A stretch of 25,989 bases of DNA, taken from a virus. A program made the position numbers and the translations under genes. Positions 2,736-25,910 of the stretch are shown piece after piece. The notes under the pieces are model-generated. The model was not told where the DNA came from and ran no database searches. It saw nothing but the letters and a program-made list of their open reading frames with translations. The stretch is from positions 1 through 25,989 of the IMG/VR virus record IMGVR_UViG_3300048810_000040. The stretch is one strand, 5' to 3'. The first letter of the stretch is position 1, and every line of letters begins with the position of its first letter.

Positions 2736-2747
2736 ACTTACGTAAGT
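2736..2747. repeat. Perfect 12-bp palindrome at the 3' end of the capsid gene
   Basis: ACTTACGTAAGT covers the last codons and stop of the capsid gene. On the minus strand GTAAGTAA occurs here and again about 25 bases further on (near 2708-2716), flanking the start of the inserted HNH unit. It could be an insertion scar or a protein-binding site; no function is established. Confidence 0.4.
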
Positions 2748-3781
2748 GCCGATTCCGTATTCAAAAGTGCATCCACCACACGGATGGGAATCCCGCGGAA
2801 TTCGACGACGGGCTGGCCGGCGTATTCGGTTGGGCGTAGGAGAACATTCTTGTCACGAATCGCCTGGATATCAAGGCTTTCCCGGATTGTCCTGTTGCAG
2901 TAGAACGCCGGGTTGATGCCGGGCGCCGGCTCGTCGGGCGCGTCGGTCTCGGTGATGCCGGACGCGCGCTTGGTCAGCGTCGGGAAGCGAACCACGGCCT
3001 TGCTCATCAGCAAGAACAGGTCCGGCGGGGTGGTGCCGAACAGGCCGACGGCAGCGGTGGTGGTGTCGAGGTTGCAGATGCGGACGGCGTAGCGCCAGTC
3101 CTTCGTCACCAGGCCGGCGTTCCACTCGAAGTAGGAGGTGTACGCCGGGAACGGGTTGTTGCTGGCGTCATAACCCGGCACGATGTCGCCGCGATCCTCA
3201 AAGACAAGGCCGGCCTTGGTGCCCTTCGGGTAGATGCCGAAGTTGGTCATGTCGCCCCAGCCGACCATCCACAGGCTGGCGTTGCTGGAGGCGGTGCCGC
3301 CACCGTTGATGCAGTTCTGGGCGTTCGCCGCATTGGCGGTGGTGATGGTGTTGTAGCGCGGGGCAAAGCCGGTGAACTGGCTCGGCGCCGTCGCGCTGTT
3401 CCCATACCAGAAGGTGGTCGCCATCTGCTGGCTCATGCCTTCCAGGAAGGCCGAATCTTCGGTGAGCCGGATCTGCGCCACCTTGCCGCCGAGTTCGGCG
3501 ACGCGCTTGTCGATCTGGCTGTAGGCGGCCAGGAACCCGAGGGTGTCCACGACCTGCGCGGTGGTCGACCGGGCGTAGGGCACACCAGCGTAAGCAAGGC
3601 GCCAGGTGCCGCTCGGCAGGCCGGTGCGGACCGTGCTCTTGTGGCCGGTATCCAGGTTCGACTCCGCCCAGGTCATGTCCTGGAAGAACTCGTTGGCCTG
3701 GCTCAGAAGCTCGGCGATGGTGTCGATCTCGCCTTCCGGGTCCATACGGCGGGCGGCGTCCATCAGGGACAGGAATGCCAT
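2738..3781 (-). CDS. Major capsid protein (Bbp17-like)
   Basis: This 347-residue protein is the shell-forming subunit of the phage head. It begins MAFLSLMDAARRMDPEG and contains the family's landmark segments: LTEDSAFLEGMSQQMATTFW (about 106-125), the YGN and GFAPRYN stretch (126-144), and a C-terminal IRESLDIQAIRDKNVLL (about 299-315) followed by YAGQPVVEFRGIPIRVVDAL. The last pattern ('F.GIPIR..DAL') is typical of HK97-fold capsid proteins. The ATG at 3781 overlaps the scaffold gene's stop (TGATG), so translation is coupled. The frame is open upstream to 4117 but that is scaffold coding sequence. The 106-144 and 297-324 segments reappear in two mini-genes near 25 kb. Confidence 0.92.
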   Translation of the reverse strand: MAFLSLMDAARRMDPEGEIDTIAELLSQANEFFQDMTWAESNLDTGHKSTVRTGLPSGTWRLAYAGVPYARSTTAQVVDTLGFLAAYSQIDKRVAELGGKVAQIRLTEDSAFLEGMSQQMATTFWYGNSATAPSQFTGFAPRYNTITTANAANAQNCINGGGTASSNASLWMVGWGDMTNFGIYPKGTKAGLVFEDRGDIVPGYDASNNPFPAYTSYFEWNAGLVTKDWRYAVRICNLDTTTAAVGLFGTTPPDLFLLMSKAVVRFPTLTKRASGITETDAPDEPAPGINPAFYCNRTIRESLDIQAIRDKNVLLRPTEYAGQPVVEFRGIPIRVVDALLNTESALT

Positions 3782-13177: not shown

Positions 13178-13471
13178 ATGAGCACCCCGTTTGGTGGTCA
13201 CCCGACGTTTCTCCAATATCTGAATTGGACGATTTTGGTCGGGTGCACCACCAAACACGGGGTAGCTTACACGGACGACGGCGGAGCAACCCGGCTACTC
13301 TTGATCGAAGCCCCCAATGGAAATTGGATGGCAGTGGTGGGTATGGCGGACAGCGAGAGGTTGCTTCCAACAACGATCGCTCGCTTCGACCGCCGGCTCG
13401 GGATCGCATCTCCATTTTTCAAAATCGATGGAGATGACCCTCCCCAATTACGTTATATAATCATGAATTAG
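13178..13471 (+). CDS. Hypothetical protein following the HicB-like gene
   Basis: This 97-residue protein starts 4 bases after the HicB-like stop. Sequences such as WTILVGCTTKHGVAYTDDGG and RLLLIEAPNGNWMAVVGMAD suggest a small beta-rich domain. No catalytic motif is recognised. Its stop overlaps that of the convergent gene at 13468 (TTAG). It could be the partner of the HicB-like protein by position only. Confidence 0.5.
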   Translation: MSTPFGGHPTFLQYLNWTILVGCTTKHGVAYTDDGGATRLLLIEAPNGNWMAVVGMADSERLLPTTIARFDRRLGIASPFFKIDGDDPPQLRYIIMN

Positions 13472-13692
13472 GCGGAGCGGCGCGGACCTATCCACGATAG
13501 GATGACGCCAACGCCGGAGCAGCGCCGGCATTCCGGATCCCAGTCCAGCCAACGATCGTGCCAACGCGGGAATGGATTGTGCTCCCATCCCCTACCGCCG
13601 CAGCGCCGGCATTTCTCCAGGACGTGCTCGTCGGTCTCGATCGAGGTCGGCGCACGTTGCTCGGGGAGTGAGCCGAAGAGGCTGGCGTTCAT
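13468..13692 (-). CDS. Small DnaJ-type zinc-finger protein
   Basis: This is a 74-residue protein with two CxxC-x-G-x-G type motifs, CRRCGGRGWEHNP (about 28-40) and CRRCSGVGVIL (about 55-65), as in the cysteine-rich domain of DnaJ. Such single-domain proteins are common in phages and are of unknown role. It is the last gene of the leftward lysis block. Confidence 0.65.
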   Translation of the reverse strand: MNASLFGSLPEQRAPTSIETDEHVLEKCRRCGGRGWEHNPFPRWHDRWLDWDPECRRCSGVGVILSWIGPRRSA

Positions 13693-13695
13693 GGC

Positions 13696-13767
13696 TTATC
13701 CGACCCCCCGATCAGTCCAGCGCCCCCAGATCAGGACGCCGAGAAGAAAAACCGCCGCTATCGTCAT
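13696..13767 (-). CDS. Tiny 23-residue membrane peptide coupled to the lysozyme
   Basis: The ATG overlaps the lysozyme stop (ATGA). The peptide is a hydrophobic N-terminal segment of about 15 residues (MTIAAVFLLGVLIWGRW) followed by a short basic tail. It is followed 3 bases after its stop by the next gene. A single span next to a lysozyme suggests a lysis accessory, but it is shorter than known holins. Chance cannot be excluded. Confidence 0.4.
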   Translation of the reverse strand: MTIAAVFLLGVLIWGRWTDRGVG

Positions 13768-14258
13768 GGCGCAGCACCGAGAAACACGGCCTGCTCCTTC
13801 AGCCGCCGGTTCCGCAATCCCTCAACCTCGACAAGCTGATGCGTCACCGGGTCGTGGTCGTAGATCCAGTCCATGAAGTGTTCGGCGGCACCAGCATCGT
13901 CGCCTTGGTGGATAAGGTACAGGATGGTCGACCCTCGGAATGCCCCAAGGCCTTCATTGTAGCTGAAGCTGGCACAGGCGGCGATCTGCGCTTCTGTGAC
14001 GGACCACGGTCCGGCACCAGGGCACAGCAGGCCGCGCACGCTTTTCACCACCGGCTGCAACTCGGACTCCATCAGAGTCCGCGCCGTTGGCTCGTCGATC
14101 GGTGGCGTGTTGGCGGTCACCGGCTGGCCGTTGATGCGGATGGTGCCATAGCCGATGGTCCAGATGCCGGCGCTGTCCAGATACGGAGCACTGCGAAACC
14201 CTTCGCAGCCGCAGACCAGAGAGGTTGCCAGGGAATCTGCGGTCGGTGCGTCACTCAT
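13764..14258 (-). CDS. Endolysin, GH24 lysozyme (muramidase)
   Basis: This 164-residue enzyme cuts the glycan backbone of peptidoglycan for host lysis. The GH24 catalytic triad is visible at the N-terminus: CEGFRSAPYLDSAGIWTIGYG with Glu19, Asp28 and Thr34 (E-x8-D-x5-T). A later CASFSYNEGLGAFRGSTIL and a C-terminal GLRNRRLKEQ are also typical (GL..RR..E). No signal peptide or anchor is seen, so it would need a holin. The ATG overlaps the stop of the preceding small gene. Confidence 0.93.
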   Translation of the reverse strand: MSDAPTADSLATSLVCGCEGFRSAPYLDSAGIWTIGYGTIRINGQPVTANTPPIDEPTARTLMESELQPVVKSVRGLLCPGAGPWSVTEAQIAACASFSYNEGLGAFRGSTILYLIHQGDDAGAAEHFMDWIYDHDPVTHQLVEVEGLRNRRLKEQAVFLGAAP

Positions 14259-14464
14259 GAATCAAGCCTTTCGCGCTTTGCTGCCGCGCCGCCGGCCAGC
14301 GGCTTCGGTCCCTTCGGTGGCTCGACGGCTACGCCTTCTGCTGAAGGGCGGCGCTTGCCGCCGCGACCTAGGCTTACTCTCGGCCCGGCCACCCACGGCT
14401 TCTTCCTCCCGCATTCAAAGCAGATCGGCTCGGCGATGAGTTGCGGGCAGCGGGTGCAGGTCAA
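14255..14464 (-). CDS. Small basic protein with CxxC pairs
   Basis: A 69-residue frame overlaps the lysozyme ATG. The likely start is a TTG at 14464 that overlaps the previous gene's stop. CTRCPQLIAEPICFECGRKK near the N-terminus has two CxxC pairs, a zinc-ribbon spacing. The rest is Gly/Pro/Arg/Lys-rich. The start codon is uncertain and no family is recognised. Confidence 0.45.
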   Translation of the reverse strand: MTCTRCPQLIAEPICFECGRKKPWVAGPRVSLGRGGKRRPSAEGVAVEPPKGPKPLAGGAAAKRERLDS

Positions 14465-14661
14465 TCTTTTGCGTCCATCGCCATCTTCTTCGGGTCGATG
14501 TGACCCTTCATGGCAGCCCAATATCTCCGCATGTTTGCACCAGCGCAAGGATCGCAGCAATCGCAGCGGTAGCCCTTCGGCGGCGTGTGAAAGTCGGCCT
14601 TCGGTCTGAAAGCCTTGCAGACTGAGCACCACTTGGTTCCGGCAGGGGGTTCCTTCTTCAT
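14461..14661 (-). CDS. Small zinc-finger-like phage protein
   Basis: This is a 66-residue protein. KWCSVCKAFRPKADFHTPPK, then CDCCDPCAGANMRRYWAA, is the 'C..C....P...F......D....C..CNN..RR.Y' pattern seen in many phage HNH-associated zinc-binding proteins. The start at 14661 is chosen because it overlaps the previous stop (ATGA); an ATG at 14673 is an alternative. Confidence 0.6.
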   Translation of the reverse strand: MKKEPPAGTKWCSVCKAFRPKADFHTPPKGYRCDCCDPCAGANMRRYWAAMKGHIDPKKMAMDAKD

Positions 14662-15107
14662 GAGCGCGGCCATACATCAGCCAGCGTGGCGAAGCCAGTG
14701 CGCGGCGGCCCATACTTAGCTGGCTCGCCAGCGGGGATGAACTTCGGTGGCGGTTCTGCTTTTACCTGTAATGAGTGCAGCCCCCATTTTGAGGCGATGC
14801 CAATTTCAGACATCGCTGATTTTGGTTTTGCAACGGCCCTGACGCAAGCGACCGCCCCCCAGCAGTGACCACACATCCCACGAAGAGCATTGCAATGGGC
14901 GCACATGATCTTGTGCATGATCGTGTCTGGCGGATAGGTGTAACGGCGCGTCCTGGGCAGGATGTGGTCGCGCGTCGCCGATCGCTTGGTGTTGCCGGCC
15001 GGCTCCATTGGATCGCCGCACTGCGGGCATAGGACTTGCTCCCCGCTCGCTTTGGCGAGGTCGAAGAGAAGCTCCTTAGACTTCCGGAAGCCAGTCGTTG
15101 CGCTCAT
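14658..15107 (-). CDS. HNH-type endonuclease-like protein
   Basis: This is a 149-residue protein. A zinc/HNH core lies at about residues 27-88: CPQCGDPM, RDHILPRTRRYTYPP, then MCAHCNALRGMCGHCW. The CxxC...DH...CxxCN layout matches cysteine-type HNH domains, with the catalytic His in RDHILP. The C-terminal 50 residues are basic and Pro-rich. It may be a packaging- or recombination-related HNH protein or a mobile one. It sits inside the lysis block and is coupled to the downstream gene. AAGG precedes the ATG. Confidence 0.7.
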   Translation of the reverse strand: MSATTGFRKSKELLFDLAKASGEQVLCPQCGDPMEPAGNTKRSATRDHILPRTRRYTYPPDTIMHKIMCAHCNALRGMCGHCWGAVACVRAVAKPKSAMSEIGIASKWGLHSLQVKAEPPPKFIPAGEPAKYGPPRTGFATLADVWPRS

Positions 15108-15141
15108 GGGCTGCCTTCATGAAGAGGCGGACGATTCCGCG

Positions 15142-15612
15142 TCAAGCGGTTCCCGGCCAACCTTTCCAGAACGGGTTAGGGCAGATACGGCCCTTCTGAT
15201 ATCCATCAGGACCGCAGTTGCAATAGTCAGGACCGCAGTGCGTATAATTCTCGTCTCTAGAGGTCAACGCCACCAGATCATCGATCGAATGACCGTCCAC
15301 GAACGCCTTGAGCCGCCGCCCTTCCGCCGTCAGCCATGCGTAGCGGGGCGACGTGCCGTATTCCAGGACATCGACCGGGAACCGGCACAGGGCGTTGATG
15401 AGCAGCCACGCCACCGTCGGCGTTAGACCAGCCTCTAGCACCTGATAATCATAGCCGCCTTCCGCCGGAACGAGGGCGAAGAACTCCTTCAGGGCCGTCA
15501 GCGTGTGTGGCTCGCCTGTGCCGTAGCCGAAGCCGAACGCCCAACTTTCCCAGTCGGTGAAGTGCTCGTCCTCGGTTTTGCGGTAACTGCCGTCTGCCAG
15601 TCGCTCGGACAT
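15142..15612 (-). CDS. Hypothetical phage protein with cysteine-rich tail
   Basis: This is a 156-residue protein. The N-terminal part has EDEHFTDWESWAFGFGYGTG, and the centre includes LTPTVAWLLINALCRFPVDV and YAWLTAEGRRLKAFVDGHS. The 'WLT..G..L..F' phrase recalls winged-helix-like ends. The C-terminus carries HCGPDYCNCGPDGYQKGRIC, a probable metal site. The ATG overlaps the previous stop (TGATG). The frame is open further upstream, in the neighbours. Function unknown. Confidence 0.65.
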   Translation of the reverse strand: MSERLADGSYRKTEDEHFTDWESWAFGFGYGTGEPHTLTALKEFFALVPAEGGYDYQVLEAGLTPTVAWLLINALCRFPVDVLEYGTSPRYAWLTAEGRRLKAFVDGHSIDDLVALTSRDENYTHCGPDYCNCGPDGYQKGRICPNPFWKGWPGTA

Positions 15613-15794
15613 CAGCCGTCCCCGAATAGCGCTGGAAGGGCGAAGCGCACGAAACCTTCGGCAGAATCCCAGAAAACGCCGAACTCGCCATCGGTGCCAC
15701 TCATCAGGTCGGCAACCATGTGCCGGTCGATGTGCGGCGGGATGACTTTGCCGGGGCGGTTCTTCAGCCGTTCGGCCCGCACTTCCTCTGCCAC
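15612..15794 (-). CDS. Small hypothetical protein
   Basis: This is a 60-residue frame starting at a GTG within the end of the HAD gene (a second GTG at 15782 is an alternative). It includes RLKNRPGKVIPPHIDRHMVA and GEFGVFWDSAEGFVRFALPA. Overlap with the following ATG suggests it is translated. It could be a displaced continuation of the unusually short HAD protein, but I see no HAD motif in it. Confidence 0.45.
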   Translation of the reverse strand: MAEEVRAERLKNRPGKVIPPHIDRHMVADLMSGTDGEFGVFWDSAEGFVRFALPALFGDG

Positions 15795-16039
15795 ACTGCA
15801 CAGTGCTTCTTCAGCCACTCCACTGTGGTCGGCCGCTCCTGCTCGCCGCGGCCACTGCACAAGATGATCCGGTGCGCGAGCATTGGGAGCGACCGCACCA
15901 GCACAGCGACCGGCTCGACCACCTTATCTAGATGGGCAAGCTTCTGGAATGCCGGCCAATTCTTTGGTTTAGAGGCGACGAGGTGCCGACGGTGGCTGAT
16001 GTCGGCCAATGTGCCATCGAGATCGACCACGATATCCAT
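15764..16039 (-). CDS. HAD-family phosphatase, T4 PseT/Pnk 3'-phosphatase-like (short)
   Basis: This is a 91-residue protein. HAD motif I is VVDLDGTLADISHRRHLV with Asp6 and Asp8, and motif II is IILCSGRGEQERP with Ser62. KPKNWPAFQKLAHLDKVVEP and TVEWLKKHC resemble the phosphatase half of T4 polynucleotide kinase, which removes 3'-phosphates in RNA/DNA repair. The protein stops where the family's later motifs (Lys and acidic pair) would start, so it is shorter than usual. It may be truncated by a frameshift or be a minimal form. AGGAGA lies 6 bases before the ATG. Confidence 0.7.
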   Translation of the reverse strand: MDIVVDLDGTLADISHRRHLVASKPKNWPAFQKLAHLDKVVEPVAVLVRSLPMLAHRIILCSGRGEQERPTTVEWLKKHCAVWQRKCGPNG

Positions 16040-16056
16040 TGCGATTCTCCTGCCAG

Positions 16057-16085
16057 TTTATTGCGGCAGCGGCAGTGGATGTCAA
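16057..16085 (-). promoter_or_regulatory. Promoter between tRNA and HAD gene
   Basis: On the minus strand a perfect TTGACA (16085-16080) is followed by a 17-base spacer and AATAAA (16062-16057). It lies just downstream of the tRNA 3' end and would drive the HAD-to-lysozyme block. Confidence 0.4.
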
Positions 16086-16095
16086 CGGGGGAGGG

Positions 16096-16172
16096 TGGTT
16101 GCGGAAGTCCGATTCGAACGGACGGCCTCCAGCTTATGAGGCTGGCGAGCTACCGGGCTGCTCCATTCCGCA
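16096..16172 (-). tRNA. tRNA-Met (anticodon CAT), initiator-like D arm, CCA encoded
   Basis: A full cloverleaf can be drawn. The acceptor stem TGCGGAA/TTCCGCA has 7 pairs, the D stem is GAGC/GCTC, the anticodon stem CCAGC/GCTGG with loop CTCATAA, the T stem GTCCG/CGGAC with loop TTCGAAT, and the 3' end is ACCA, encoded. The D arm (TGGAGCAGCCCGGTAGCTCG) is that of bacterial initiator tRNAs, including the A11-T24 pair. However, the three G-C pairs of initiators at the base of the anticodon stem are absent, and position 1-72 is T-A rather than a C-A mismatch. CAT could also be a lysidine-modified Ile anticodon. Confidence 0.92.
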
Positions 16173-16183
16173 CCAGTGCTGTC

Positions 16184-16396
16184 CTATGAAGGCGTCGCCT
16201 CTGGCTTGTCAAGCGCCGCGTTCGCCTCGGCTTTGCCGATCAATTCGAGAATCCGCATAGCCTGATCGCGACGGATCGCGAACCCGCCGCCCTCACAGAC
16301 CGGGATGCTGCGGATCACGAGACCCCTGAGCATCACCCAGTCCGGCATCGCCGAATGATAGCGCGGCTCAACGCCGGCAAGCGGATCGTCGGTCAT
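16184..16396 (-). CDS. Small hypothetical protein
   Basis: This 70-residue protein overlaps the Dam-type gene stop (ATGA). It includes MLRGLVIRSIPVCEGGGFAI and RRDQAMRILELIGKAEANAA. It ends 12 bases before the tRNA. No family is recognised. Confidence 0.55.
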   Translation of the reverse strand: MTDDPLAGVEPRYHSAMPDWVMLRGLVIRSIPVCEGGGFAIRRDQAMRILELIGKAEANAALDKPEATPS

Positions 16397-16917
16397 CGTT
16401 CGCCCTCCGCCTGGGCGAACAGCGGGGCGTCTCGACGCAGGTGGACGAAGAAGCCGGACAAGCCGCAGTTCTCCAGAAGTTCGGCATCCTCGCGGCCATA
16501 AGCAATGAGCGCGATCGGGCAACCGCTATTGGCCTTCGCTCGCGTGCCGTCCTGATAATGGAAGTGTGGCCGTCCTTGCAGGAACAGGACCGCCGCAGCA
16601 TGCCGCCAGACCCAGTTGAACCAGATTGCCGTTTCTGTCCTAGCGGCTAGAAGCGCGGTGCCGTGGTTGTGGCTGGCCATCATCGCCATAAAGCCATTCA
16701 GCAACGGAAGCGGACCGAAGGGCGGGTTGAGCCAGACACGGCCGTACCAGGATCGGATCAGCCCGTAAGGCTCAACGATATGGCTGGCAGCAGTCGACCA
16801 CGGTCTCGGCAGCGGACAGGCACACGGATCGAGATCGAACTTACCTAGCGCCGCCAGGATATCCGGCGGCGTCAACCATGTCGTCGTCTCAGCCGTCGCC
16901 GATTGATGGGAACCCAT
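16393..16917 (-). CDS. Phage N6-adenine DNA methyltransferase (Dam, phage type)
   Basis: This is a 174-residue protein. The start WLTPPDILAALGKFDLDPCA (about 14-33) and the catalytic motif VWLNPPFGPLP with NPPF at residues 64-67 match the phage Dam family (PF05869-like), which transfers methyl from SAM to adenine N6. Such enzymes protect phage DNA from host restriction. WFNWVWRHAAAVLFLQGRPH and SGCPIALIAYG are further family regions. The start at 16917 is chosen because a GGGGGG-rich site lies 9 bases upstream; an ATG at 16926 is an alternative. Confidence 0.87.
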   Translation of the reverse strand: MGSHQSATAETTTWLTPPDILAALGKFDLDPCACPLPRPWSTAASHIVEPYGLIRSWYGRVWLNPPFGPLPLLNGFMAMMASHNHGTALLAARTETAIWFNWVWRHAAAVLFLQGRPHFHYQDGTRAKANSGCPIALIAYGREDAELLENCGLSGFFVHLRRDAPLFAQAEGER

Positions 16918-16965
16918 TGACCGCATCCCCCCTCTATGCCTCCCCCCCTCATAGGGGCGCAACGG

Positions 16966-17964
16966 TTAATCGGGGGACAATTCCATCTGTCGAGCGTCGG
17001 TGCGTCCTTTCTTGGCCGACGCATCGTAATACTCGAAGGGGACGGCCCGGTACAGGCCGGTGACCACCCATCGTTGGAACCGCTTCAAACTGCGATACCG
17101 CTCCGGATCAGCCGCGCGGCAGTCGAACACCATCGGAAACGGCTCGATGCCTCGGGAAACCATCGCGTTGAACCGTTCCCAGATGGTCGGCCACGTCTCG
17201 TTCTTGAAAAAACCGACCAGCATGTAGGCCATGACGTGCTTCGGCGGCACCCCAGCGGCCTCCAGCATGTCCACGCCGCGCATAAAGATCGGCCAATCCT
17301 TGAAGTTGTCCCATGCGGTGTAGATGCGCCGCTCCTGAAACCCGTCGTCTCGATACTCGACGCTGGCGACAGCTTCGGCTGCCGCCAGCGACAGATGCCG
17401 CACGTTGATCCCTTGGTTGAAGCAGACACGGAAACCGCCGCGCCTTATTTCCTCGATGCGGGCTCGCCACTCGGTTTCGGGCTGCCCGAAGAAATCGTTA
17501 TCGAGCAGATGCAACTTCTTGGGGTGTTTCCCGCCGCGCCAGATATCAGCGATGGTGTTCACCGAGACCGGCTTGCCTTCTTTCCCCGGCACCACGCAGA
17601 ACTTGCAGGCTAAGCGGCAACCACGCTGGGTGAAGCCGATCGACGGCTCGAAGCCAGGCGCTATCGAGTAGTCATACCGCTCGTAGACCGGCTCCCCGAT
17701 GATGTCCTCGACCGTATGCTGGCGGTCCGTTCCCGTTCCCCCGAGGACAGCCCCTGGAAAGGCAGCGATAAACCGAGCGATCTTCGGCGCGCTGAATTTG
17801 AAGATAGCAGAGCCGTATACGACACCATAATCCGCCTCGAACAAGTCCCGCTCGGCCTGCCGGGTGTAGTGTACGACGTCGCCGCGCTCTCGATGCCAGT
17901 GGGCGAGCTTCATCAACGCGAGGTTGGGAAGACTGCCATCAAGCTGGGTGAGACGGACATGCAC
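16966..17964 (-). CDS. Radical SAM protein
   Basis: This 332-residue protein has a Cys116-x3-Cys120-x2-Cys123 iron-sulfur motif (GCRLACKFCVVPGKEG), preceded by a B12-binding-like N-terminal domain (PNLALMKLAHWHRERGD, YGSAIFKFSAP, LGGTG). The rest fits a TIM-barrel (LLDNDFFG, CFNQGINVRHL, AYMLVGFF). The enzyme would cleave SAM to start radical chemistry. Relatives of this form occur in phage genomes without known substrate, and it is not QueE-like. It starts at a GTG. It lies between the Dam-type methylase and a homing endonuclease, so a nucleic-acid or glycan substrate are both possible. Confidence 0.85.
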   Translation of the reverse strand: MHVRLTQLDGSLPNLALMKLAHWHRERGDVVHYTRQAERDLFEADYGVVYGSAIFKFSAPKIARFIAAFPGAVLGGTGTDRQHTVEDIIGEPVYERYDYSIAPGFEPSIGFTQRGCRLACKFCVVPGKEGKPVSVNTIADIWRGGKHPKKLHLLDNDFFGQPETEWRARIEEIRRGGFRVCFNQGINVRHLSLAAAEAVASVEYRDDGFQERRIYTAWDNFKDWPIFMRGVDMLEAAGVPPKHVMAYMLVGFFKNETWPTIWERFNAMVSRGIEPFPMVFDCRAADPERYRSLKRFQRWVVTGLYRAVPFEYYDASAKKGRTDARQMELSPD

Positions 17965-18002
17965 CCGCCTCTTATGCCGATCGCGATCCCCAGGCGCAAT
18001 GG

Positions 18003-18938
18003 TTAATCGGCGGCGAGCAGCGACGGCTGCGCGGCATTCCGCTCGGCAGCCTTCTTGGCTTTGGCGACTGCTCGCTTGGCTCGCAATCTGTCCCGCTCCA
18101 TCAGGCGTTTCCGTTCCTCGTTGGCCGCGACCATTTCCGGGGTCCAGTGGGAACGCTTGGCTTTCTTGCCAGCCGAAATGTTGGCGGCGATCTCAGCGCG
18201 GCGTTCTGGCGTGCGTTTTTTCCAACGTTCGAAAGCAGCCACGCGACTCTTGCCAGATGCGATCCTGGCAGCCGAGGCCTTAGCAATCTCCTCCGGGGTC
18301 CACCCTCTCGCCGTCCGGTAAACCCTCAGCGCATCGCGATGCTCGGGAGACACCTGTTGTCCTTTATGGATGGCCGACAACTTGGCTTTCGTCGCGTCAG
18401 ACGCCTTCCTGCCCAGATTAGCCGCCCTGGTTTTGGCTATCGCTTCTGGCGACATCTTCCGCCCGGTATTCGCGGCTGATATCTTAGCTCCTGTCTCGGG
18501 AGACCGCTTTCGCCCCTTGTGGAGGGCCGACATCCGCGCTCTTTGCTCATCCGATAGATCGGGCTTCTTGCCTTTCTTGCTGGCGCTGATTTTCGCTCGG
18601 CTGACGTCCGAATGGCGGAGACCTAGCTGGTTGCCAGCTTTTGGCCTAGCATTGTAGCCAAACAAGCGATCGCAGGACTGGAAGATGTCCATCCAGAACT
18701 GCTCCCGCTCGATGAGCATCGTCGGTTCAGCAACCACCTCAACGATGCCCCATTCGAAGGTATCCTCCCCGTATTTCGTCCAGGCTGCCTGAAGGTGCGG
18801 GCAATGCGAACGGCCGCGGCGAAGCGCGTAGAGATGGTCGTTCCTGCGTTCGAGCGCGTCGATAGCCGAGCCAATATAGACTTTGCCATTCTCGCGGTTG
18901 CGGAACGCATAAATCGCGGGTAGGTTTTCACGAGCCAC
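18003..18938 (-). CDS. GIY-YIG homing endonuclease with NUMOD3 repeats
   Basis: This is a 311-residue protein. The GIY-YIG domain covers residues 1-95: AIYAFRNRENGKVYIGSA, Arg31, His35, LQAAWTKYGEDTFEW, and IEREQFWMD with the metal-binding Glu. From about residue 103 on come several NUMOD3 repeats (GLRHSDVSRAKISASKKGKK, then HKGRKRSPETGAKISAANTG and further copies), which bind DNA. The C-terminus is Lys/Ala-rich. It starts at a GTG with AAGGA 9 bases upstream and has its own promoter. Very likely a mobile free-standing homing endonuclease inserted between the glycosyltransferase and radical SAM genes. Confidence 0.92.
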   Translation of the reverse strand: MARENLPAIYAFRNRENGKVYIGSAIDALERRNDHLYALRRGRSHCPHLQAAWTKYGEDTFEWGIVEVVAEPTMLIEREQFWMDIFQSCDRLFGYNARPKAGNQLGLRHSDVSRAKISASKKGKKPDLSDEQRARMSALHKGRKRSPETGAKISAANTGRKMSPEAIAKTRAANLGRKASDATKAKLSAIHKGQQVSPEHRDALRVYRTARGWTPEEIAKASAARIASGKSRVAAFERWKKRTPERRAEIAANISAGKKAKRSHWTPEMVAANEERKRLMERDRLRAKRAVAKAKKAAERNAAQPSLLAAD

Positions 18939-19004
18939 AGCGGTATGTCCTTGGACGCTGGAGGTCAGGGACGGGGAGACCGCGCCAACGGCTCCTCGCC
19001 CCGC

Positions 19005-19034
19005 TTTATACCTTTAGTCGGCCGCGTCCTGCAA
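19005..19034 (-). promoter_or_regulatory. Sigma70-type promoter for the GIY-YIG gene
   Basis: On the minus strand TTGCAG (19034-19029) is followed by an 18-base spacer and TATAAA (19010-19005). It overlaps the last codons of the glycosyltransferase gene, about 70 bases before the GTG at 18938. Confidence 0.45.
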
Positions 19035-20690
19035 TGGTTTCTCCGCCACTTCTGCCGGCGGCCTTTCGCACGTTACCGTCTGCACCCCGATATGACCTAC
19101 CTCGAAGGTCAGATCGAGGTCGCACCAGACCGAGAAGCCGGCCTTCCTCGCGGCCTTTATGAAGTAGAGGTCCTCGCTGAAATAGCGTTCGGGGCTGCCG
19201 GCGTCGACCGCCACCTCGTAGTGATCCCGCATCCACGCACCGAGCTTGGTGCTGTCGAGTTCGTCCATCGCTTCCGCCGGCGGTTCAGCCGTGAAATAGC
19301 TGCGCATCTGCCGTTTGAAGGCGTCGAGCCCGTCGTCGCCTTCCCACTTGTAGCATTCAGCGTACCAAGGCCATTTCAACGCTTTGTAGACTTTCATATC
19401 CACCAACAACAACCCACCAGGTAGCAACTCTGCTTCGTGGAGACCGCCTGAGCGCAGTACATGCCCACCAGGATTTGGTCCCTTGAGGCGGCCTAGCGTT
19501 TGAAAATTTGGAGTGCGCCGATTATAAGTGGCCCCACAGATATCTTTTTTATGTTGCAGTAACCGCACCAAAGTATTGGGAGGGAATGTCATATCTGAGT
19601 CCACCCAACATAGGGCGTCGCAATTATTCTCCATCGCTATTTGAACTGTACTATTACGGCCATGCGTAATTGCACTGGTCTGCACGTTGATGAGCGAGAG
19701 GTCAATTCCTGCTTGTGCTGAATATGCAGCCATTGCCGCTATACTGTTGGCACATCCAGCTTCATACGACCGGCCGGATGGCGTGCAAATAGCAACCCGC
19801 AGTTTCCGCGGCGCCTGCTTCGCCAGATCGGCGATCATCCCTTCGGCGTATTTCTTCACCTCCGCGTACGCTGGATACGGCGGTTCGGTTGCCTTCGACC
19901 CCCAATAATCCAGGAAAGCCGGGTTCTTCAGGTGCGCGACCCGGGCGGCGCAGATTTGCTGGCGCCGGCCGAGGTCGGCCAAGGCGGCAGCACCTTCCTT
20001 GTGGTCCTTGCCCCATGCCGCCTCGATGAGTTGAATACCTTCCTTCAGCCGCACCGGAGTGATGGCATGGAAGAAATCCACCCAGAACGGCAATTCGTAG
20101 CGACCGTCGATGGTGCCGTCGGTGCCTTCCTGGACGGCGAGTTCGACCGGGATCTCGAAGCGAACACCTAGCAGCACACCGAGTTGGTCCCAGTGGGTGT
20201 CAATGAACCAGTAGGGGTAGCAGGGCGGCATGACAAATCCAACGGCCTTCTCCATCTGCCTGGTGACGATAGGGAAGGCGGCGTGGTCAGGGTGCAGCGG
20301 GTCCTTGGGATAGGCAACGCCGATGCCGTTCGGCAGGCTGGCGACGGCTTCGCGGAACTTGGTCGGCCAACCCTCGGTGAGCATGAGGCGATCATTTGCT
20401 ACGGACCAGAGGATGGTTCCATGCGCCTCTTTCGCCAGCATGTTGATCTTCTGGCCGAGCGTGAGCGGCCGTGGCCAAGTGAAATATCGCACATGCCGGC
20501 TTTCGACCGGATCGACGCCGTGATGTGCGCTGTCGTCCTCGTCGATCGCCACCAGGATTTCGTAGCGCTTGTCATCGCCATCGTGTGTGACGAGGGACCA
20601 CAGCAACGCCTTCAGTGCCTCCGGCCGGCCGCGCTCCGGGATCAGGACGCTGATAAGGGGTTTCTCACGGCGTAGTTTGGCTTCGCCCAT
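19014..20690 (-). CDS. Two-domain glycosyltransferase
   Basis: This 558-residue protein has two GT-A like domains. Domain 1 (about 10-270) begins PLISVLIPERGRPEALKALL and has ILVAIDEDDSAHHGVDPVES and ILWSVANDRLMLTEGW. Domain 2 (about 295-535) has RVAICTPSGRSYEAGCANSI, a DxD motif in LCWVDSDMTFPPNTLVRLLQ (Asp364, Asp366), KDICGATYNRR and YFSEDLYFIKAARKAG. It probably adds two sugars, or one domain is regulatory. The start at 20690 (MGEAKLRRE) is preferred over a TTG at 20699. About 330 bases coding for the core of domain 2 (near 19430-19760) are much richer in A/T than the flanks. Confidence 0.82.
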   Translation of the reverse strand: MGEAKLRREKPLISVLIPERGRPEALKALLWSLVTHDGDDKRYEILVAIDEDDSAHHGVDPVESRHVRYFTWPRPLTLGQKINMLAKEAHGTILWSVANDRLMLTEGWPTKFREAVASLPNGIGVAYPKDPLHPDHAAFPIVTRQMEKAVGFVMPPCYPYWFIDTHWDQLGVLLGVRFEIPVELAVQEGTDGTIDGRYELPFWVDFFHAITPVRLKEGIQLIEAAWGKDHKEGAAALADLGRRQQICAARVAHLKNPAFLDYWGSKATEPPYPAYAEVKKYAEGMIADLAKQAPRKLRVAICTPSGRSYEAGCANSIAAMAAYSAQAGIDLSLINVQTSAITHGRNSTVQIAMENNCDALCWVDSDMTFPPNTLVRLLQHKKDICGATYNRRTPNFQTLGRLKGPNPGGHVLRSGGLHEAELLPGGLLLVDMKVYKALKWPWYAECYKWEGDDGLDAFKRQMRSYFTAEPPAEAMDELDSTKLGAWMRDHYEVAVDAGSPERYFSEDLYFIKAARKAGFSVWCDLDLTFEVGHIGVQTVTCERPPAEVAEKPLQDAAD

Positions 20691-20695
20691 AAAGG

Positions 20696-21124
20696 TCAAT
20701 GTCCTTCAGATCGTGGGAGGATGAGGAGAGGCGGCGCCGCCCGGTCGAACAGCCGCGTAACTTGGTGCTCCAGCTTTTCGAGCAGCTTCACCCGATGGTT
20801 CCAGCGTTCGGTGCGATAAACCAGCGCTACACCACCCTGGCCAGCAACTTTGAATTCAGCCTGTAGCTGGTCCTCCATCTGCTCGGCGATGCGGGCCGGC
20901 AGGAGCCAGCGCATATCCATGCGGAGGGCGGCGATGCCGCGGAAGCAGTCGCGGAAGCCATGCAGGTGGATCATGCAGTCGAGCGGCGTCCGCGCCGTTG
21001 CATAGCGCTGGGCCATCGCTTGGAATGCCTCCCGAAGCTTGCGGATGTGGCCGACACCTTCGCGAAGGCACTCGCGCTCGGACATCTCGCGACCTTGCTG
21101 CATCTGGCCAGCAACTTCAGGCAT
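20696..21124 (-). CDS. Hypothetical helical phage protein
   Basis: This 142-residue protein is mostly alpha-helical and charged (ECLREGVGHIRKLREAFQAM, then RIAEQMEDQLQAEFKVAGQG, then WNHRVKLLEKLEHQVTRLFD). It lies between the HiPIP-like gene (8-base overlap) and the glycosyltransferase. No family is recognised. An ATG 13 codons further in is an alternative start. Confidence 0.6.
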   Translation of the reverse strand: MPEVAGQMQQGREMSERECLREGVGHIRKLREAFQAMAQRYATARTPLDCMIHLHGFRDCFRGIAALRMDMRWLLPARIAEQMEDQLQAEFKVAGQGGVALVYRTERWNHRVKLLEKLEHQVTRLFDRAAPPLLILPRSEGH

Positions 21125-21308
21125 TCTTCTTCTCTTTCACGGTGGCGCGCTCGAAAAGGCGGCACCAAGCTCCAGGGTCGATATCGCCGGCGACGAGCAC
21201 GCACGACTTCGGCTTGCGGAAGTGCTCGCAGACACCGCAATGGCGGGTCATCTTCCCGCGACCGTAGCGGACTGATGCCTTGGAAACTTTCGCTGGCTTC
21301 TCAGCCAT
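21117..21308 (-). CDS. HiPIP-like small four-cysteine protein
   Basis: This is a 63-residue protein. HCGVCEHFRKPKSCVLVAGD followed by IDPGAWCRLFE gives cysteines 24, 27, 36 and 49. The pattern 'C..C..F..P..C..V.G.I.P.GWC.L' is that of small phage proteins related to high-potential iron-sulfur proteins, where four cysteines hold a 4Fe-4S cluster. There is no export signal, so a periplasmic electron carrier is unlikely. The ATG overlaps the previous stop. Structural zinc binding is the alternative. Confidence 0.65.
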   Translation of the reverse strand: MAEKPAKVSKASVRYGRGKMTRHCGVCEHFRKPKSCVLVAGDIDPGAWCRLFERATVKEKKNA

Positions 21309-21762
21309 TGCCGCAGATGTCCTCGGACACGGCGGCGCGGCGCACTGCCAGTCGAACAGCCTTATCCAGCGGCGCACGCATCGCTGTCAGCGTGGATGTG
21401 AATATCGGCCTGTCGCTGATATAGTCGGCGGCGTCGTAGTGGTGCGAGCACAGCACGATGGCCGATCCGCCACCCGGCGTGCCCCACGCGTAATCGATCC
21501 AAGTCATCGGCGGCAGATACAGGGCCTCTCCTGGGATCACGCCGTATTTGTGCTTAGCGCCGTCGTCCAGGTTCACCAGCAGCGTGTTTTTCGTCGGCAC
21601 CAGAAGCTGATGGCACGTCCGCAGGGCATGGCCGCCCCGCCACTGGAACACCTGGTCGGACGAAATGGTGAACGCCCGCACTGCCGGGAACGGCAGCCGG
21701 TCGAGCACGGTCAGCAGTCCGCGGCCGTCCTGGTGACGGGTGAATTTCAGAATGCGGTCCAT
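21301..21762 (-). CDS. WxcM / FdtA-QdtA-like cupin, sugar 3,4-ketoisomerase type
   Basis: This 153-residue protein has the phrases of this cupin family in order: HQDGRGLLTVLDRLPFPAVR (about 10-29), VFQWRGGHALRTCHQLLVP (38-56), a dimer-type centre LYLPPMTWIDYAWGTPGGGS, and IVLCSHHYDAADYISDRP (102-119). The family's members FdtA and QdtA isomerise dTDP-4-keto-6-deoxyglucose at positions 3 and 4 on the way to amino-deoxy sugars. WxcM-like members occur in glycan loci. The conserved His and Tyr (YDAADYI) are present. It suggests that the phage alters an unusual surface sugar. The ATG lies just at the stop of the upstream gene. Confidence 0.75.
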   Translation of the reverse strand: MDRILKFTRHQDGRGLLTVLDRLPFPAVRAFTISSDQVFQWRGGHALRTCHQLLVPTKNTLLVNLDDGAKHKYGVIPGEALYLPPMTWIDYAWGTPGGGSAIVLCSHHYDAADYISDRPIFTSTLTAMRAPLDKAVRLAVRRAAVSEDICGNG

Positions 21763-21953
21763 CAGGTTCCCTTGGGAATATCAGTGACGCGGACGCGGCC
21801 GACGCCAGTTTCGATCCAGATTTCGCCAACCGGCACACGGCCATCAGGGATCACACGCACAGCCCGCGTCGAGTTACCGGCGGCATGCCGCAGCTTCTCG
21901 ATGATCGCGTTCACGTTGCTGCTCGCTGACAGGGGACGAAGGAGGTTCAGCAT
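21762..21953 (-). CDS. Small protein directly downstream of the portal
   Basis: This 63-residue protein has an ATG overlapping the portal stop (TAATG). It includes NVNAIIEKLRHAAGNSTRAV and GEIWIETGVGRVRVTDIPKG. It appears to be the last head-type gene before the accessory block. No family is recognised. Confidence 0.6.
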   Translation of the reverse strand: MLNLLRPLSASSNVNAIIEKLRHAAGNSTRAVRVIPDGRVPVGEIWIETGVGRVRVTDIPKGT

Positions 21954-23875
21954 TACGCGGCTCCCCCAGGCTGTGCTCCAGGACCGCCGCCACCGCCGTT
22001 GATACCCTGGCCGAGCCCGGTGAGCAGCGACATTGCATTCTGGCCGCCGCCGATATCCGTACTTCCGAGCGTCTGAGCGGTCGTTGCAGCGTGCTGCGCG
22101 GCGATCATCGCCTGGGCTTGCTGCTGTTGCTTCTGACGCGCCGCAGTCAATGCCTTCACTGCATCCGGGCTGCGCACGATCTTCTTCGGGATAAACAGCG
22201 TGTCGGACATCTCGCGCCCCCACTCGACGACGTCCCAAAGGTCGGCGATTTCCGGATGGAGTTGCTGCTGGGCGTTCATCTGGTTGGCGAATTCGGTCAG
22301 CGCCGCCGACATCGAGGCCTTGGATGCCAGCGCCAGAACGCCGACGTATTCGACGCCGAGCGGCACGCCTTCGAGCGAGCGCGGCAGCGGCGGCAGCAGG
22401 TTCCGGCGGTTGGCGATCGAGAACACCCGGCGGATGGCCGGGCCCAGGCCTTCGTTTTGAAGTCGCTCGACCACGGGGCCGAGGATTTGCAGCTTTTCCT
22501 GGTTGCGGGCGGCGACTTCGTACGCCGTCATGTCCTTTTTGGTCTGCTCGAGCATGGCGAAGAGGTCATTGAAGAACCCTTCGCGGCAACGCTGCTGGAT
22601 TTGCAGGATGGTCTCGGCGAATTCCCTGGTCTGCGGGTTGACGGTGTAGGCTGGCCGCATGCCGACTTCCGGGCCAAGCTTCGGAACGTAGGTGAGCTTG
22701 CCCGGCAGCACGCTGGCTGGCTCGTTCTTCATCTCGATGCTCGCCAGCATCGGCGGCCGGACCATCTTCTCCTGCGCCTCGGCCATGCGGCTCGTCATCA
22801 CCTGCAACTGCAGGATGTCCGGCATCACATCCATGCCGACGCTGCGGCCGTAGGCGTCGTTGCTGGTGACGCTCCAGCGCGGGCAGATGAATGGCGGCTC
22901 ATGGAAGCCGGACAGGCTCAGAGGCCACTCGTTGCTGGCGCCCCAGATCCAGTAGGCCTCACGCCAGGCGAAGCCACCCGGAACCATGCCAGCGGCTTCG
23001 TCCATGCCCGGGGCGTTGATCGGGCTGTTCGGCTCGATGATGTGGGCGACCAGCCGCTCCACCTCGAGCGCGCCGCCCTTCTGCCGCCACATCTCCTGGA
23101 CTTCCGGCGGGCAGTTTTCGAGTTCGAACATCTCCACGATGGCAGAGATCGTCATCACGAAGAGGCGGCTCAGGACGCCGACGCGGTTGCCGGACGAGCT
23201 CGACAGCAGATATTCGCCGCAGCAGGGCGTGTAGCAGCGGATGAGATCGGCCTGATCTTCGTAAATCAGCATCGGGCCGGTGCCGAAGATCACCAGGTCC
23301 TCAAACATCTGCGCGGCTTCGTCGTAGAAGTTGCTGCGCGCCATGATGGTGTGCAGCCGGTCCTCAACCTCTTCGAACCACTCGATGGCGTCCGGCGGCG
23401 CTTCCGAGCGATCGGCCAGGGCTGGTTTCAGCTTGAACCACTGCCGTGATGGCGACATCTCGTTGGACATGATGCCGGCAGCACAGCGGCGGGCAGCATA
23501 GGTGCCGGTCGGGTCGACGATGTTCTGGTTGATCGGCTGGCCGCGGATCATGGAGTTCGGCGTCGGCATCGCCGTGTTGATGAAGATGCCGCGGCGAGGC
23601 TGAATGTAGGCCTCGAGCAGTTGGTAGTTCTGCATCCATGACTGCCGCCACGAGCGCTGTTGATTAATCCTCTGCTCTGAATGATGCCGAATTTGCGCCC
23701 AATTACTATCAGAACCGTCGGGCCGTCGCTTCTTGGCCTTTGCCGGAGTCTTCGACAACCTATCGGCGCTAGCGTCTGCATACGACAATTCAGCGCGTTT
23801 TCTCGGCGCCCGCTTTGCACCCTCAGGGCGAGGTTGCGCAGCACCGTAGCCAGAATTGCCTACACTCCCGGACAT
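21953..23875 (-). CDS. Portal / head-tail connector protein
   Basis: This 640-residue protein is of the short-tailed-phage connector type (PF12236-like). Landmarks are NIVDPTGTYAARRCAAGIMS (about 118-137), SPSRQWFKLKP, FEDLVIFGTGPMLIYED (about 190-206), and KKDMTAYEVAARNQEKLQIL followed by PVVERLQNEGLGPAIRRVF (about 460-500), the 'R.TA.EV..R..E....LG.V..RL..E...P...R' pattern of portals. The Gln/Ala/Gly-rich end is typical. It forms the dodecameric DNA gate at the head vertex. The ATG at 23875 overlaps the preceding stop (TGATG); a GTG at 23890 is an alternative start. Confidence 0.92.
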   Translation of the reverse strand: MSGSVGNSGYGAAQPRPEGAKRAPRKRAELSYADASADRLSKTPAKAKKRRPDGSDSNWAQIRHHSEQRINQQRSWRQSWMQNYQLLEAYIQPRRGIFINTAMPTPNSMIRGQPINQNIVDPTGTYAARRCAAGIMSNEMSPSRQWFKLKPALADRSEAPPDAIEWFEEVEDRLHTIMARSNFYDEAAQMFEDLVIFGTGPMLIYEDQADLIRCYTPCCGEYLLSSSSGNRVGVLSRLFVMTISAIVEMFELENCPPEVQEMWRQKGGALEVERLVAHIIEPNSPINAPGMDEAAGMVPGGFAWREAYWIWGASNEWPLSLSGFHEPPFICPRWSVTSNDAYGRSVGMDVMPDILQLQVMTSRMAEAQEKMVRPPMLASIEMKNEPASVLPGKLTYVPKLGPEVGMRPAYTVNPQTREFAETILQIQQRCREGFFNDLFAMLEQTKKDMTAYEVAARNQEKLQILGPVVERLQNEGLGPAIRRVFSIANRRNLLPPLPRSLEGVPLGVEYVGVLALASKASMSAALTEFANQMNAQQQLHPEIADLWDVVEWGREMSDTLFIPKKIVRSPDAVKALTAARQKQQQQAQAMIAAQHAATTAQTLGSTDIGGGQNAMSLLTGLGQGINGGGGGPGAQPGGAA

Positions 23876-24495
23876 CAGCAGGCCCCCCACAGCATCTCAA
23901 TCGGGAAGTGCGGATCAACCCACGGACGCATCGGGGCTTCCCATTTATTCTTCGCTGCCGTGGCGGCGCCGGCCCGCCGCGAGTTTTCAGCCTTGGTGAT
24001 CCACTCGCAGTTCCCAGGATCGTAATTCCCCCAGGACGACTTGCGCTCAATGGTCAGATCGTCGGCGTAGCCATTAGCGCGTGCCCAATCGCGGAACACC
24101 GCGAAATCTGACCACTCAGGGCAGACGACAATTCCCTTCGCCAGATAAATGTCCCAGCCACGCGGCGACGAATGCCGACCAGGGTTACAGCGCTCGTGCA
24201 TGGATGCCCATGTACGCCATAACCGCGTCTTGCGGCCCTTGCTGCCCATGAAGTCGCCATGCTTAGCCTTGGCCAACGCCTGCCTCGCGGTTGAGCACTG
24301 GCGACACCCCGGTGTCTTCGTCTGCTTCAGCCGGTAGGTGGCAAGCGTCACCTCGCCGCCGCAGTCGCAGGCGCAGCGCCATTTCGTGACCAGACCGGGG
24401 CCGCCAACCCATTCCTTGATGAGCAATCGGCCGAACCGCACTCCCACATCAACGCCGAGTTCAGCCAGGACGGGCGCTTGCGCTGCGCTCTTCAT
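23875..24495 (-). CDS. Zn-ribbon / HNH-like phage protein (second paralog)
   Basis: This 206-residue protein is of the same family as that at 8809-9498. It has VGVRFGRLLIKEWVG then CACDCGGEV and CRQCS (zinc-ribbon), RTWASMHERCNPG, KGIVVCPEWSDFAVFRDWAR, and TIERKSSWGNYDPGNCEWIT then KAENSRR. The family's Asp in 'IDR' is a Glu here too (TIERK, against EIERL in the other copy). It lies directly before the portal, translation-coupled at both ends (ATGA and TGATG), with no promoter of its own, so it relies on the late operon. Mobile nuclease or derived regulatory protein; activity uncertain. Confidence 0.75.
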   Translation of the reverse strand: MKSAAQAPVLAELGVDVGVRFGRLLIKEWVGGPGLVTKWRCACDCGGEVTLATYRLKQTKTPGCRQCSTARQALAKAKHGDFMGSKGRKTRLWRTWASMHERCNPGRHSSPRGWDIYLAKGIVVCPEWSDFAVFRDWARANGYADDLTIERKSSWGNYDPGNCEWITKAENSRRAGAATAAKNKWEAPMRPWVDPHFPIEMLWGAC

Positions 24496-24683
24496 GGCTT
24501 GAATCCGATCGGCTCACGGTCCTGAACGCGGTAGATCGGCACGCCTTGGGCGGTCACGAGACCGGTTTCACGCGGCGAGTCGTCCTGCGCCCAGACGGTG
24601 ATGGTGGGCAGCGGTTCAGGTATATTTGTTGCCGACACCCATGCGCGCGGCGGCTTGGCCATTGCCTCGTAGCGCGGCTTCAT
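24492..24683 (-). CDS. Small hypothetical phage protein
   Basis: This is a 63-residue protein with MAKPPRAWVSATNIPEPLPT and RETGLVTAQGVPIYRVQDRE. The phrase 'R.TGL....G.PIYR' is common in tiny phage proteins located between terminase and portal genes. Both ends overlap neighbours (ATGA). Function unknown. Confidence 0.6.
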   Translation of the reverse strand: MKPRYEAMAKPPRAWVSATNIPEPLPTITVWAQDDSPRETGLVTAQGVPIYRVQDREPIGFKP

Positions 24684-24901
24684 CGGCGCGCCTCGCTGAT
24701 GCCGAAGCGGGCCACCTCAGTCCAGCAGCCGACGCTCAGCGCCAGCTTGGAGCCGGAGGAAAGGAAAGCCTGGCTGGCGGTTTGCGTGACCGGCCGCCGG
24801 CGCATGAGCGTCGAAGCCCATTGCTCCCGGGCGCGCTGGATGGCCTGCGCGTCGGCGGCGAACTGGGCGGCGGCTTCAAGGATGTCTGCATCGTCGGACA
24901 T
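24680..24901 (-). CDS. Small hypothetical protein
   Basis: This 73-residue protein has AGGAA 8 bases before the ATG. It is alanine-rich and helical (ADILEAAAQFAADAQAIQRA), then has RRRPVTQTASQAFLSSGSKL. No family is recognised. Coupled to the next gene by an ATGA overlap. Confidence 0.5.
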   Translation of the reverse strand: MSDDADILEAAAQFAADAQAIQRAREQWASTLMRRRPVTQTASQAFLSSGSKLALSVGCWTEVARFGISEARR

Positions 24902-24982
24902 GGCTGCGCTTCCTGCGGGTATTCAGGAGCGCGGCCGGGTCCTCCGTGCCGCAGTCAGTGACTCAATAAGCGGAACGACGGG

Positions 24983-25285
24983 TTAATTCAAGCGGGTAGG
25001 CTCATTGAAGCCGCTCAAGCCCGGCAGTTCGAACGGATGCAGATCGGCGTTCCCGTACCAGAACTGCGCGACGATCTTCTGGCTCATGCCTTCGAGAAAG
25101 GCCATTTCTTCGGCAAGACGCGCGTTCGGCTCCAGATACGGGATAGCGTTGATAGCTTCTCGCCATCTCGCAAACTGTCCTAGGTCCTTGACCGCCTTGA
25201 CCGGCATCAGCCCGCAGCGGCGGGCGATCGCCGGCCCTGCCAGCAGGCCAGCCAAGCCAGCGATGAAGCCGCGGCGGGCGATCAT
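24983..25285 (-). CDS. Mini-protein B: Tat-like leader plus central capsid-protein segment
   Basis: This is a 100-residue protein. Residues 1-30 (MIARRGFIAGLAGLLAGPAI then MPVK) look like a twin-arginine or signal-like leader with a hydrophobic core. Residues 56-93 (RLAEEMAFLEGMSQKIVAQF, then WYGN and GFNEP) match the major capsid protein at about 105-142, with about 16 of 23 residues identical in the core and clear DNA-level similarity (for example TCTGGCTCATGCCTTC near 25078, against about 3431). The protein ends just after that segment. The ATG overlaps the stop of mini-protein A. No function is known. Confidence 0.7.
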   Translation of the reverse strand: MIARRGFIAGLAGLLAGPAIARRCGLMPVKAVKDLGQFARWREAINAIPYLEPNARLAEEMAFLEGMSQKIVAQFWYGNADLHPFELPGLSGFNEPTRLN

Positions 25286-25557
25286 GCGGCAATGTCCGAG
25301 ACGGTGTTCCATATACCGGTGTCGGCGTCGAGTTGCTGGATAATCGTTCGTGGACCCCAGTTCAGAGGCCGCCCTGCGTAATCATCTATATGGAGCAACA
25401 CATTGCGGTCGCGGATAGCCTGCACATCGAATTGGACTCGGATTGTCCTCGGCAGCTTCAGTGCCCTCACGGGCATAATCAGCCCTGGCGTCCTGATGAT
25501 AGCCGGAGCGCAGAGGGCGGCGGCGATGCCGGTGAGGAAGCCGCGGCGCTGGATCAC
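25282..25557 (-). CDS. Mini-protein A: Tat-like leader plus C-terminal capsid-protein segment
   Basis: This 91-residue protein starts at a GTG with GGAGGAAGG 8 bases upstream, and the GTG overlaps the previous stop. Residues 1-30 (QRRGFLTGIAAALCAPAIIR then GLIMPV) match the leader of mini-protein B in pattern. Residues 37-65 (RTIRVQFDVQAIRDRNVLLH then DYAGRP) match the capsid protein at about 297-324, with about 18 of 28 identical residues, and DNA similarity is visible (CGGATTGTCCT is shared). It then diverges from the capsid sequence. Tandem arrangement with B shows a common origin of the leaders. Function unknown. Confidence 0.7.
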   Translation of the reverse strand: MIQRRGFLTGIAAALCAPAIIRTPGLIMPVRALKLPRTIRVQFDVQAIRDRNVLLHIDDYAGRPLNWGPRTIIQQLDADTGIWNTVSDIAA

Positions 25558-25910
25558 AGCACGAACCTTCCTCCGTTGGCCTCGGCCATCTGCCGAATGC
25601 GCGCTGGCGTGATGCCGCGTCGCCACGCTCGAAAGACATCTGCGTAGCCATATTCGTGGCAAGCGTCTCGATAGGCCTTGGGCATGCTGTCGACCGCGTC
25701 CATGACCGGCTTCGCCACTTTCTCTGCGTAGTCGGGATGATCGGCAGCGACTTTCGGCTGATAGGCGTTCGTGATGCCGTCCGTCAACGGCCGGCCGTCG
25801 GCGGCGAACCGATCCGGCGCACTTGCGGCGTCGCGCTCCTCGGCTTGCCGCAGCCATGCCAACCGGGAAGCACGTTCACGGGCTCGGCCGACTATCGTTC
25901 GACGCAGCAT
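25554..25910 (-). CDS. Hypothetical helical protein
   Basis: This is a 118-residue protein. A basic N-terminus (RRTIVGRARERASRLAWLRQ) is followed by acidic and helical parts such as DYAEKVAKPVMDAVDSMPKA and ADVFRAWRRGITPARIRQMA. The last phrase ('F.AWRRG.TP..I...A') recurs in small phage proteins, perhaps DNA-contacting helix-turn-helix remnants. The stop overlaps the GTG of mini-protein A. Confidence 0.6.
   Translation of the reverse strand: MLRRTIVGRARERASRLAWLRQAEERDAASAPDRFAADGRPLTDGITNAYQPKVAADHPDYAEKVAKPVMDAVDSMPKAYRDACHEYGYADVFRAWRRGITPARIRQMAEANGGRFVL

Follow-up and report, generated by a model that had tools for sequence, protein, structure and literature searches.

Small phage genes that join a shared leader to short segments of capsid and portal proteins

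The closest described relatives of the proteins reported here are the major capsid proteins (MCPs) of the GP7 type (Pfam PF20911), a family that includes Bbp17 of phage BPP-1 and gp7 of epsilon15 (PDB 3j4u and 3j40), and the portal proteins of family PF12236. Capsid-derived or capsid-directed interference is known from Gag-derived restriction factors such as Fv1 and from the capsid-remodelling proteins of phage satellites. These would be comparable only in the way they work, as shell-related or shell-acting proteins that hinder or redirect assembly; they are whole domains or dedicated proteins, whereas the small proteins described below consist of a leader and short, exchangeable pieces. No family library names such leader-segment proteins, and no description of them was found in the open-access papers searched. 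Judged from sequence, the class is new in its architecture; its function we infer.

The window, that is, the whole stretch of viral DNA analysed, is 25,989 nucleotides long and contains two such genes, A and B, together with the genes for its own capsid and portal proteins:

2738..3781, minus strand: MCP of the window, GP7 family (Pfam PF20911, 387 bits; PDB 3j4u, E=5.8e-73)
2807..2893, minus strand: MCP gene region to which A aligns (protein alignment)
3362..3475, minus strand: MCP gene region to which B aligns (protein alignment)
21953..23872, minus strand: portal (head-to-tail connecting) protein gene (Pfam PF12236, 397 bits)
24983..25285, minus strand: mini-gene B, leader and capsid middle segment (100 aa, ATG start)
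25013..25126, minus strand: capsid-like segment of B, residues 54-91, corresponding to MCP 106-143 (E=9e-11; Pfam GP7)
25187..25285, minus strand: leader of B, residues 1-33 (homology to the A leader; leader profile)
25282..25557, minus strand: mini-gene A, leader and capsid C-terminal segment (91 aa, GTG start)
25363..25449, minus strand: capsid-like segment of A, residues 37-65, corresponding to MCP 300-328 (62% identity, E=6e-10)
25459..25557, minus strand: leader of A, residues 1-33, ending RRGFLTGIAAALCAPAIIRTPGLIMPVRAL (homology to the B leader, E=4e-10; leader profile)
25554..25910, minus strand: 118-aa gene upstream of A, no significant family
25566..25574, minus strand: ribosome-binding-like GGAGGAAGG, 8 nt 5' of the GTG of A (sequence inspection)

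The two small genes are coupled by overlapping starts, as the original prediction had it: the stop codon of the 118-residue gene overlaps the start of A as GTGA, and the ATG of B overlaps the stop of A as ATGA. The ribosome-binding site proposed for A is likewise present, as GGAGGAAGG before its GTG. The order of the pieces is reversed with respect to the capsid, with the C-terminal piece in the first gene (A) and the middle piece in the second (B). Open reading frames of 73, 63 and 206 residues follow 3' of B on the same strand, and then the portal gene.

Statistical alignment places both mini-proteins beyond chance against the MCP of the window, and the capsid segments first assigned to them by eye were recovered. 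Residues 37-65 of A match MCP residues 300-328 with 62% identity (E=6e-10); the whole alignment of B has E=9e-11, with residues 54-91 against MCP 106-143 as its best-matching part (MCP residues follow the P0003 numbering; counted from the methionine they are lower by 3). Permutation z-scores are 14.7 for A and 16.6 for B, neither score being reached in 2000 shuffles, and against the MCP profile both segments stand at 0/1000 shuffles. B passes the Pfam GP7 threshold (28.0 bits, cut-off 27), A has no Pfam match, and neither matches the portal family. The capsid segment of A retains 15 of the 16 strongly conserved capsid positions and has the consensus residue at just one of 13 variable positions. 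B covers 38 of the 313 GP7 profile positions and A spans 29 MCP residues, both far from a full-length HK97-type capsid protein; because only these short stretches are covered, A and B are not classed as capsid proteins, and on these alignments their homology to the capsid is by segment only. The same applies to related minis from other loci (designated L below), of which those of L003, L004, L047 and L079 score below the GP7 cut-off. Unlike GP7-type MCPs, the minis hold about 20-55 of some 350 residues behind a foreign leader, which makes an HK97-type fold impossible.

Predicted models of the MCP and of B (mean pLDDT 46.9 and 49.4) provide rough secondary structure only and are too weak to show folding. 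In these low-confidence models the B segment lies on and just after a long MCP helix (residues 104-129), and the A segment on a helix near the C-terminus (residues 300-312). This modelled helix agrees with the P-domain helix of 7 turns that has been described in BPP-1 (PMC3863775).

The leaders of A and B are homologous, being 59% identical across 34 residues (E=4e-10), and leaders of this kind usually end in LMPVK or LMPVR. Their earlier description as Tat-like is apt as a resemblance to the signals modelled by TIGR01409 and PF10518: they contain RR, a short hydrophobic stretch and, in many members although not in A and B, V-R-A before LMPVK. As an assignment it is not secured, since every score lies under the curated cut-offs of the Tat models (12.9-15.3 bits against 16.7 for TIGR01409, 19.1 bits against 22.7 for PF10518), and Tat signals do not include the LMPVK/R that is conserved beyond the expected cleavage point. 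In the reading proposed below, the leader would keep the peptide at the inner membrane. Among the leaders of L047 and L139-L143, pS is 0.27-0.70 and pN 0.02-0.13, the latter lowered somewhat by the use of AGSLMPVK as one search pattern in collecting them. By these substitution rates the leader is under purifying selection, and its low pN/pS supports the view that the leader genes are translated.

Near relatives of the window carry either the same genes or a recombined allele. L001 and L002 have A and B unchanged; in L003 and L004 a single gene replaces the pair and consists of a leader, B-like in L003 and A-like in L004, then TEQYGRSIALMALPDLRMIQ, then the capsid segment and tail of B. The TEQYGRSIALMALPDLRMIQ middle is similar to portal proteins of family PF12236 (E=0.0075-0.01, below the cut-off; 0/1000 shuffles) over some 20 conserved residues, YGRSxxMDALPD, which are also present in the L139 mini. 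The portal scores, 14.8 bits for L003, 15.2 for L004 and 19.9 for L139, remain under the Pfam cut-off of 27 and cover about 20-30 of 489 positions, and unlike full-length portal proteins these minis lack the rest of the protein. The similarity of L003 and L004 to the window ends within gene B:

24492..25108, minus strand: stretch 99.5% shared with L003 and L004; the alleles switch to another leader and middle at its upper end, within B

These alleles switch within the gene, near 25108, and recombine its parts; leaders, middles and tails are thus exchanged as modules.

Portal and capsid searches yielded 111 loci in total. Six of the ten distinct leader proteins in them have capsid and/or portal segments, whereas among about 1,280 other small genes eleven do, some of them only weakly, so that leader and segment co-occur far more often than by chance (Fisher p=4e-10). 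A scan with the L047 mini and genomes of the Rhizobium order brought the leader proteins to 21 altogether, and in 10 of the 21 a capsid and/or portal segment reached a score that none of 1000 shuffles equalled. Eight carry a GP7 capsid segment (A, B, L003/L004, L047, L079, L100, L139 and L147), two of them with a portal segment in addition (L003/L004 and L139); L142 and L146 match the N-terminus of a second major head protein (L236:18748-19752; phrog_9953, E=2.9e-25), and for L146 the head protein of this second family on its own contig was the best match in a blast search against own contigs. The order varies, from leader, portal and capsid in L003/L004 to leader, capsid and portal in L139, and does not follow the gene order in the genome. 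In roughly half of the leader proteins the origin of the tail was not recognised; those of L140 and L141 look portal-like by eye, but with 10/1000 shuffles and no match, respectively, both were left out of the counts. The idea of capsid pieces in small genes therefore stands for A and B but is incomplete, as relatives also carry portal pieces, in shuffled order, and pieces of a second capsid family. By architecture and recurrence in the sequences compared, A and B represent an undescribed family of small phage proteins in which a mobile leader module carries short capsid or portal segments.

Profiles of scaffold, tail, c4, Bbp16, terminase and gp200 proteins matched only three leader proteins in the shuffle test: L068 (tail, 1.6 bits, 0/1000), L146 (terminase, 1/1000) and A (Bbp16, 11/1000). 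About 190 profile-protein pairs were tested, with about 0.2 false matches expected at 0/1000, and the MCP profile gave no match to reversed sequences. A scan of all open reading frames revealed stand-alone pieces for capsid, portal and scaffold, and only frameshift, fragment or divergent full-gene cases for other late families. The bias of the tails to procapsid proteins is suggestive, with profile sensitivity varying by family and many loci having been collected via capsid or portal. Separately, the tail of the leader protein at L068:19595-19927 weakly matches a 961-aa tail protein and is possibly a piece of a third virion protein.

The distribution of the family is patchy. Most related phages have no leader gene, and searching the genome contigs with a profile built from B and its alleles gave no relative. 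The 397 Rhizobium order genomes contained two leader proteins, with tails matching nothing. Compared with annotated phages, A, B and the L047 mini hit mostly capsid genes, and no relative across the whole length was found; phages of Caulobacter vibrioides CB15 have GP7-like matches. Leader queries found nothing either, which is weak evidence of absence because the leader is short and of low complexity. Annotation overlooks such genes, because each segment scores near or below the family cut-offs.

The original prediction had proposed, from similarity at the DNA level, that the segments derive from the capsid gene of this phage or of a close relative. At residues shared with the own capsid, however, identical codons number 8 in A, 13 in B and 6 in L047, against 10.3, 11.4 and 11.1 predicted from codon usage, and the similarity of A and B to the capsid DNA is no more than their common amino acids require. 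The capsid or portal genes whose amino acid sequences are most similar diverge from the segments at 0.43-1.06 of synonymous sites, and no close donor was found at such sites among the sampled capsid genes. Among 136 capsids, the own MCP ranks 54th for L047, 106th for L079, 61st for L139, 29th for L147 and 3rd for L100; a separate ranking puts the own capsid type in sixth place for A and in second place for B. With codon agreement at chance and the own protein usually not the closest, the DNA argument for capsid derivation fails; the homology of the proteins is unaffected. On the same grounds we reject a recent copy of the phage's own capsid gene. The portal-before-capsid order of L003/L004 suggested a remnant left by collinear deletion in a duplicated portal-capsid block, which the capsid-before-portal order of L139 contradicts.

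The best reading, to which we give a probability of about 35%, is that the segments interfere with procapsid assembly. The mini-protein would be made during infection and its segment would bind the natural partners of the same capsid or portal stretch; once bound, it would block or divert procapsid assembly, most usefully in co-infecting related phages, and the shuffling would stem from selection to match changing competitors. This is suggested by the recurrence of the genes, the specificity for procapsid proteins, the unfixed order, the co-occurrence of leader and segment, the constrained leader and the often better match to foreign capsids. Several points speak against it: an exporting leader would remove the peptide from the cytoplasm, where capsids are assembled; B, L100 and the portal piece of L003/L004 match the phage's own protein comparatively well; the origin of roughly half of the tails is not recognised; and in L047 and L022 the mini is encoded on the other strand from the late genes. 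The wider proposal that mobile, shuffled, leader-tagged minigenes form a modular, re-armed peptide system, presenting procapsid segments against co-infecting phages or host capsid sensors, is a little easier to credit, although still short of even odds.

That the tails are recombination by-products, as the original prediction had allowed, is a weakened and rather unlikely alternative. Only the leader would then be functional, perhaps as a small peptide that is exported or sits in the membrane, and its tail would be swapped by illegitimate recombination with nearby late genes and drift. Illegitimate recombination is well known in phage genomes, alleles of these genes switch inside the gene, and unrecognised tails are frequent. 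The leaders are constrained and also move separately, because those of L047 and L139 are closer (dS 0.49) than the segments behind them (pS 0.82). Yet the recognised tails are almost only capsid and portal, not terminase, Bbp16 or the long tail gene, with the proviso that profile sensitivity differs, and conserved capsid positions have been kept although there is no recent donor among the sampled capsids. The L047 and L139 segments moreover both have NRVIR, a pattern absent from the 92 capsids in which the motif was found; with pN 0.23 against the pS of 0.82 (one pair, 22 codons), the capsid segment itself seems constrained outside the capsid, if the two descend from one mini.

Interference with assembly is also favoured over a role as immune-sensor decoys, a proposal we hold equally doubtful, in which the segments would occupy the site of a host sensor for capsid or portal without triggering it, leaving the real capsid unnoticed. 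Known bacterial sensors do recognise such proteins: CapRel binds newly made MCP and is escaped through changes in MCP residues 111-124, the short MCP peptide Gol can activate Lit (PMC9712102), and a TIR system senses capsids (PMC11312562). An arms race would also predict short, conserved and shuffled segments, as observed. A faithful mimic, however, would be expected to trigger the sensor rather than block it, several segments are closer to the capsids of other phages than to the own one, and no sensor is known for the hosts of these phages.

Improbable next to all of these is a role in the phage's own assembly or virion, as membrane-anchored nucleators, regulators or minor head components contacting the shell or portal vertex: the segments do derive from procapsid proteins, both the window and L100 have the leader gene a short way upstream of the portal gene and on its strand, and degenerate capsid paralogues occur in this phage group, but leader genes are missing from most related phages, some lie on the opposite strand, and the own capsid is often not the best match.

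Leader-segment proteins may interfere with the building or the sensing of virus particles. If the segments act on assembly or its sensors, they would be natural peptides marking functional spots of capsid and portal, and a new route of phage competition or defence escape. Even with passive tails, a mobile leader repeatedly joined to shell segments from two capsid families is a gene-birth process, of which no description was found in the papers searched.

In the window, the portal and scaffold/capsid genes are separated by some 17 kb in which accessory genes occupy both strands (5000-21800), including:

11432-12517, plus strand: IS1595-type transposase
13764-14258, minus strand: lysozyme
16393-16962, minus strand: Dam methylase
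18003-18938, minus strand: GIY-YIG/NUMOD3
19014-20699, minus strand: glycosyltransferase
21301-21762, minus strand: FdtA-like

Another tandem pair of overlapping leader genes, whose tails differ from each other as those of A and B do, is located at L148:4117-4521 and 4454-4945. The L047 mini ends a minus-strand cassette opposite the late genes (L047:7040-8094), which begins with a small protein resembling, by eye only, AlpA/excisionase-type DNA-binding proteins.

Leaderless small proteins with pieces of the same late proteins also occur. Those at L025:14025-14333, L025:14315-14896, L025:3282-3977 (minus strand) and L011/L014:13768-14262 share the capsid stretch FEDRGDIVPGYD..PFPAYT (MCP 197-224), present twice in one of them; the corresponding piece forms a hairpin (residues 194-229) in the MCP model. 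One portal segment each is found in L100:3006-3263, L041:468-752 and L045:7796-8236, two of them strong (about 1e-11) and that of L045 weak, while L100:7253-7621, L101:5363-5794 and L089:7741-8448 resemble the C-terminal part of the scaffold/protease. The degenerate capsid paralogues (233-256 aa; L040:2992-3690, L079:5322-6020 and L096:2433-3200) are missing the 196-225 hairpin and the greater part of the N-terminal third; their genes precede the true capsid gene, upstream of it within the late region.
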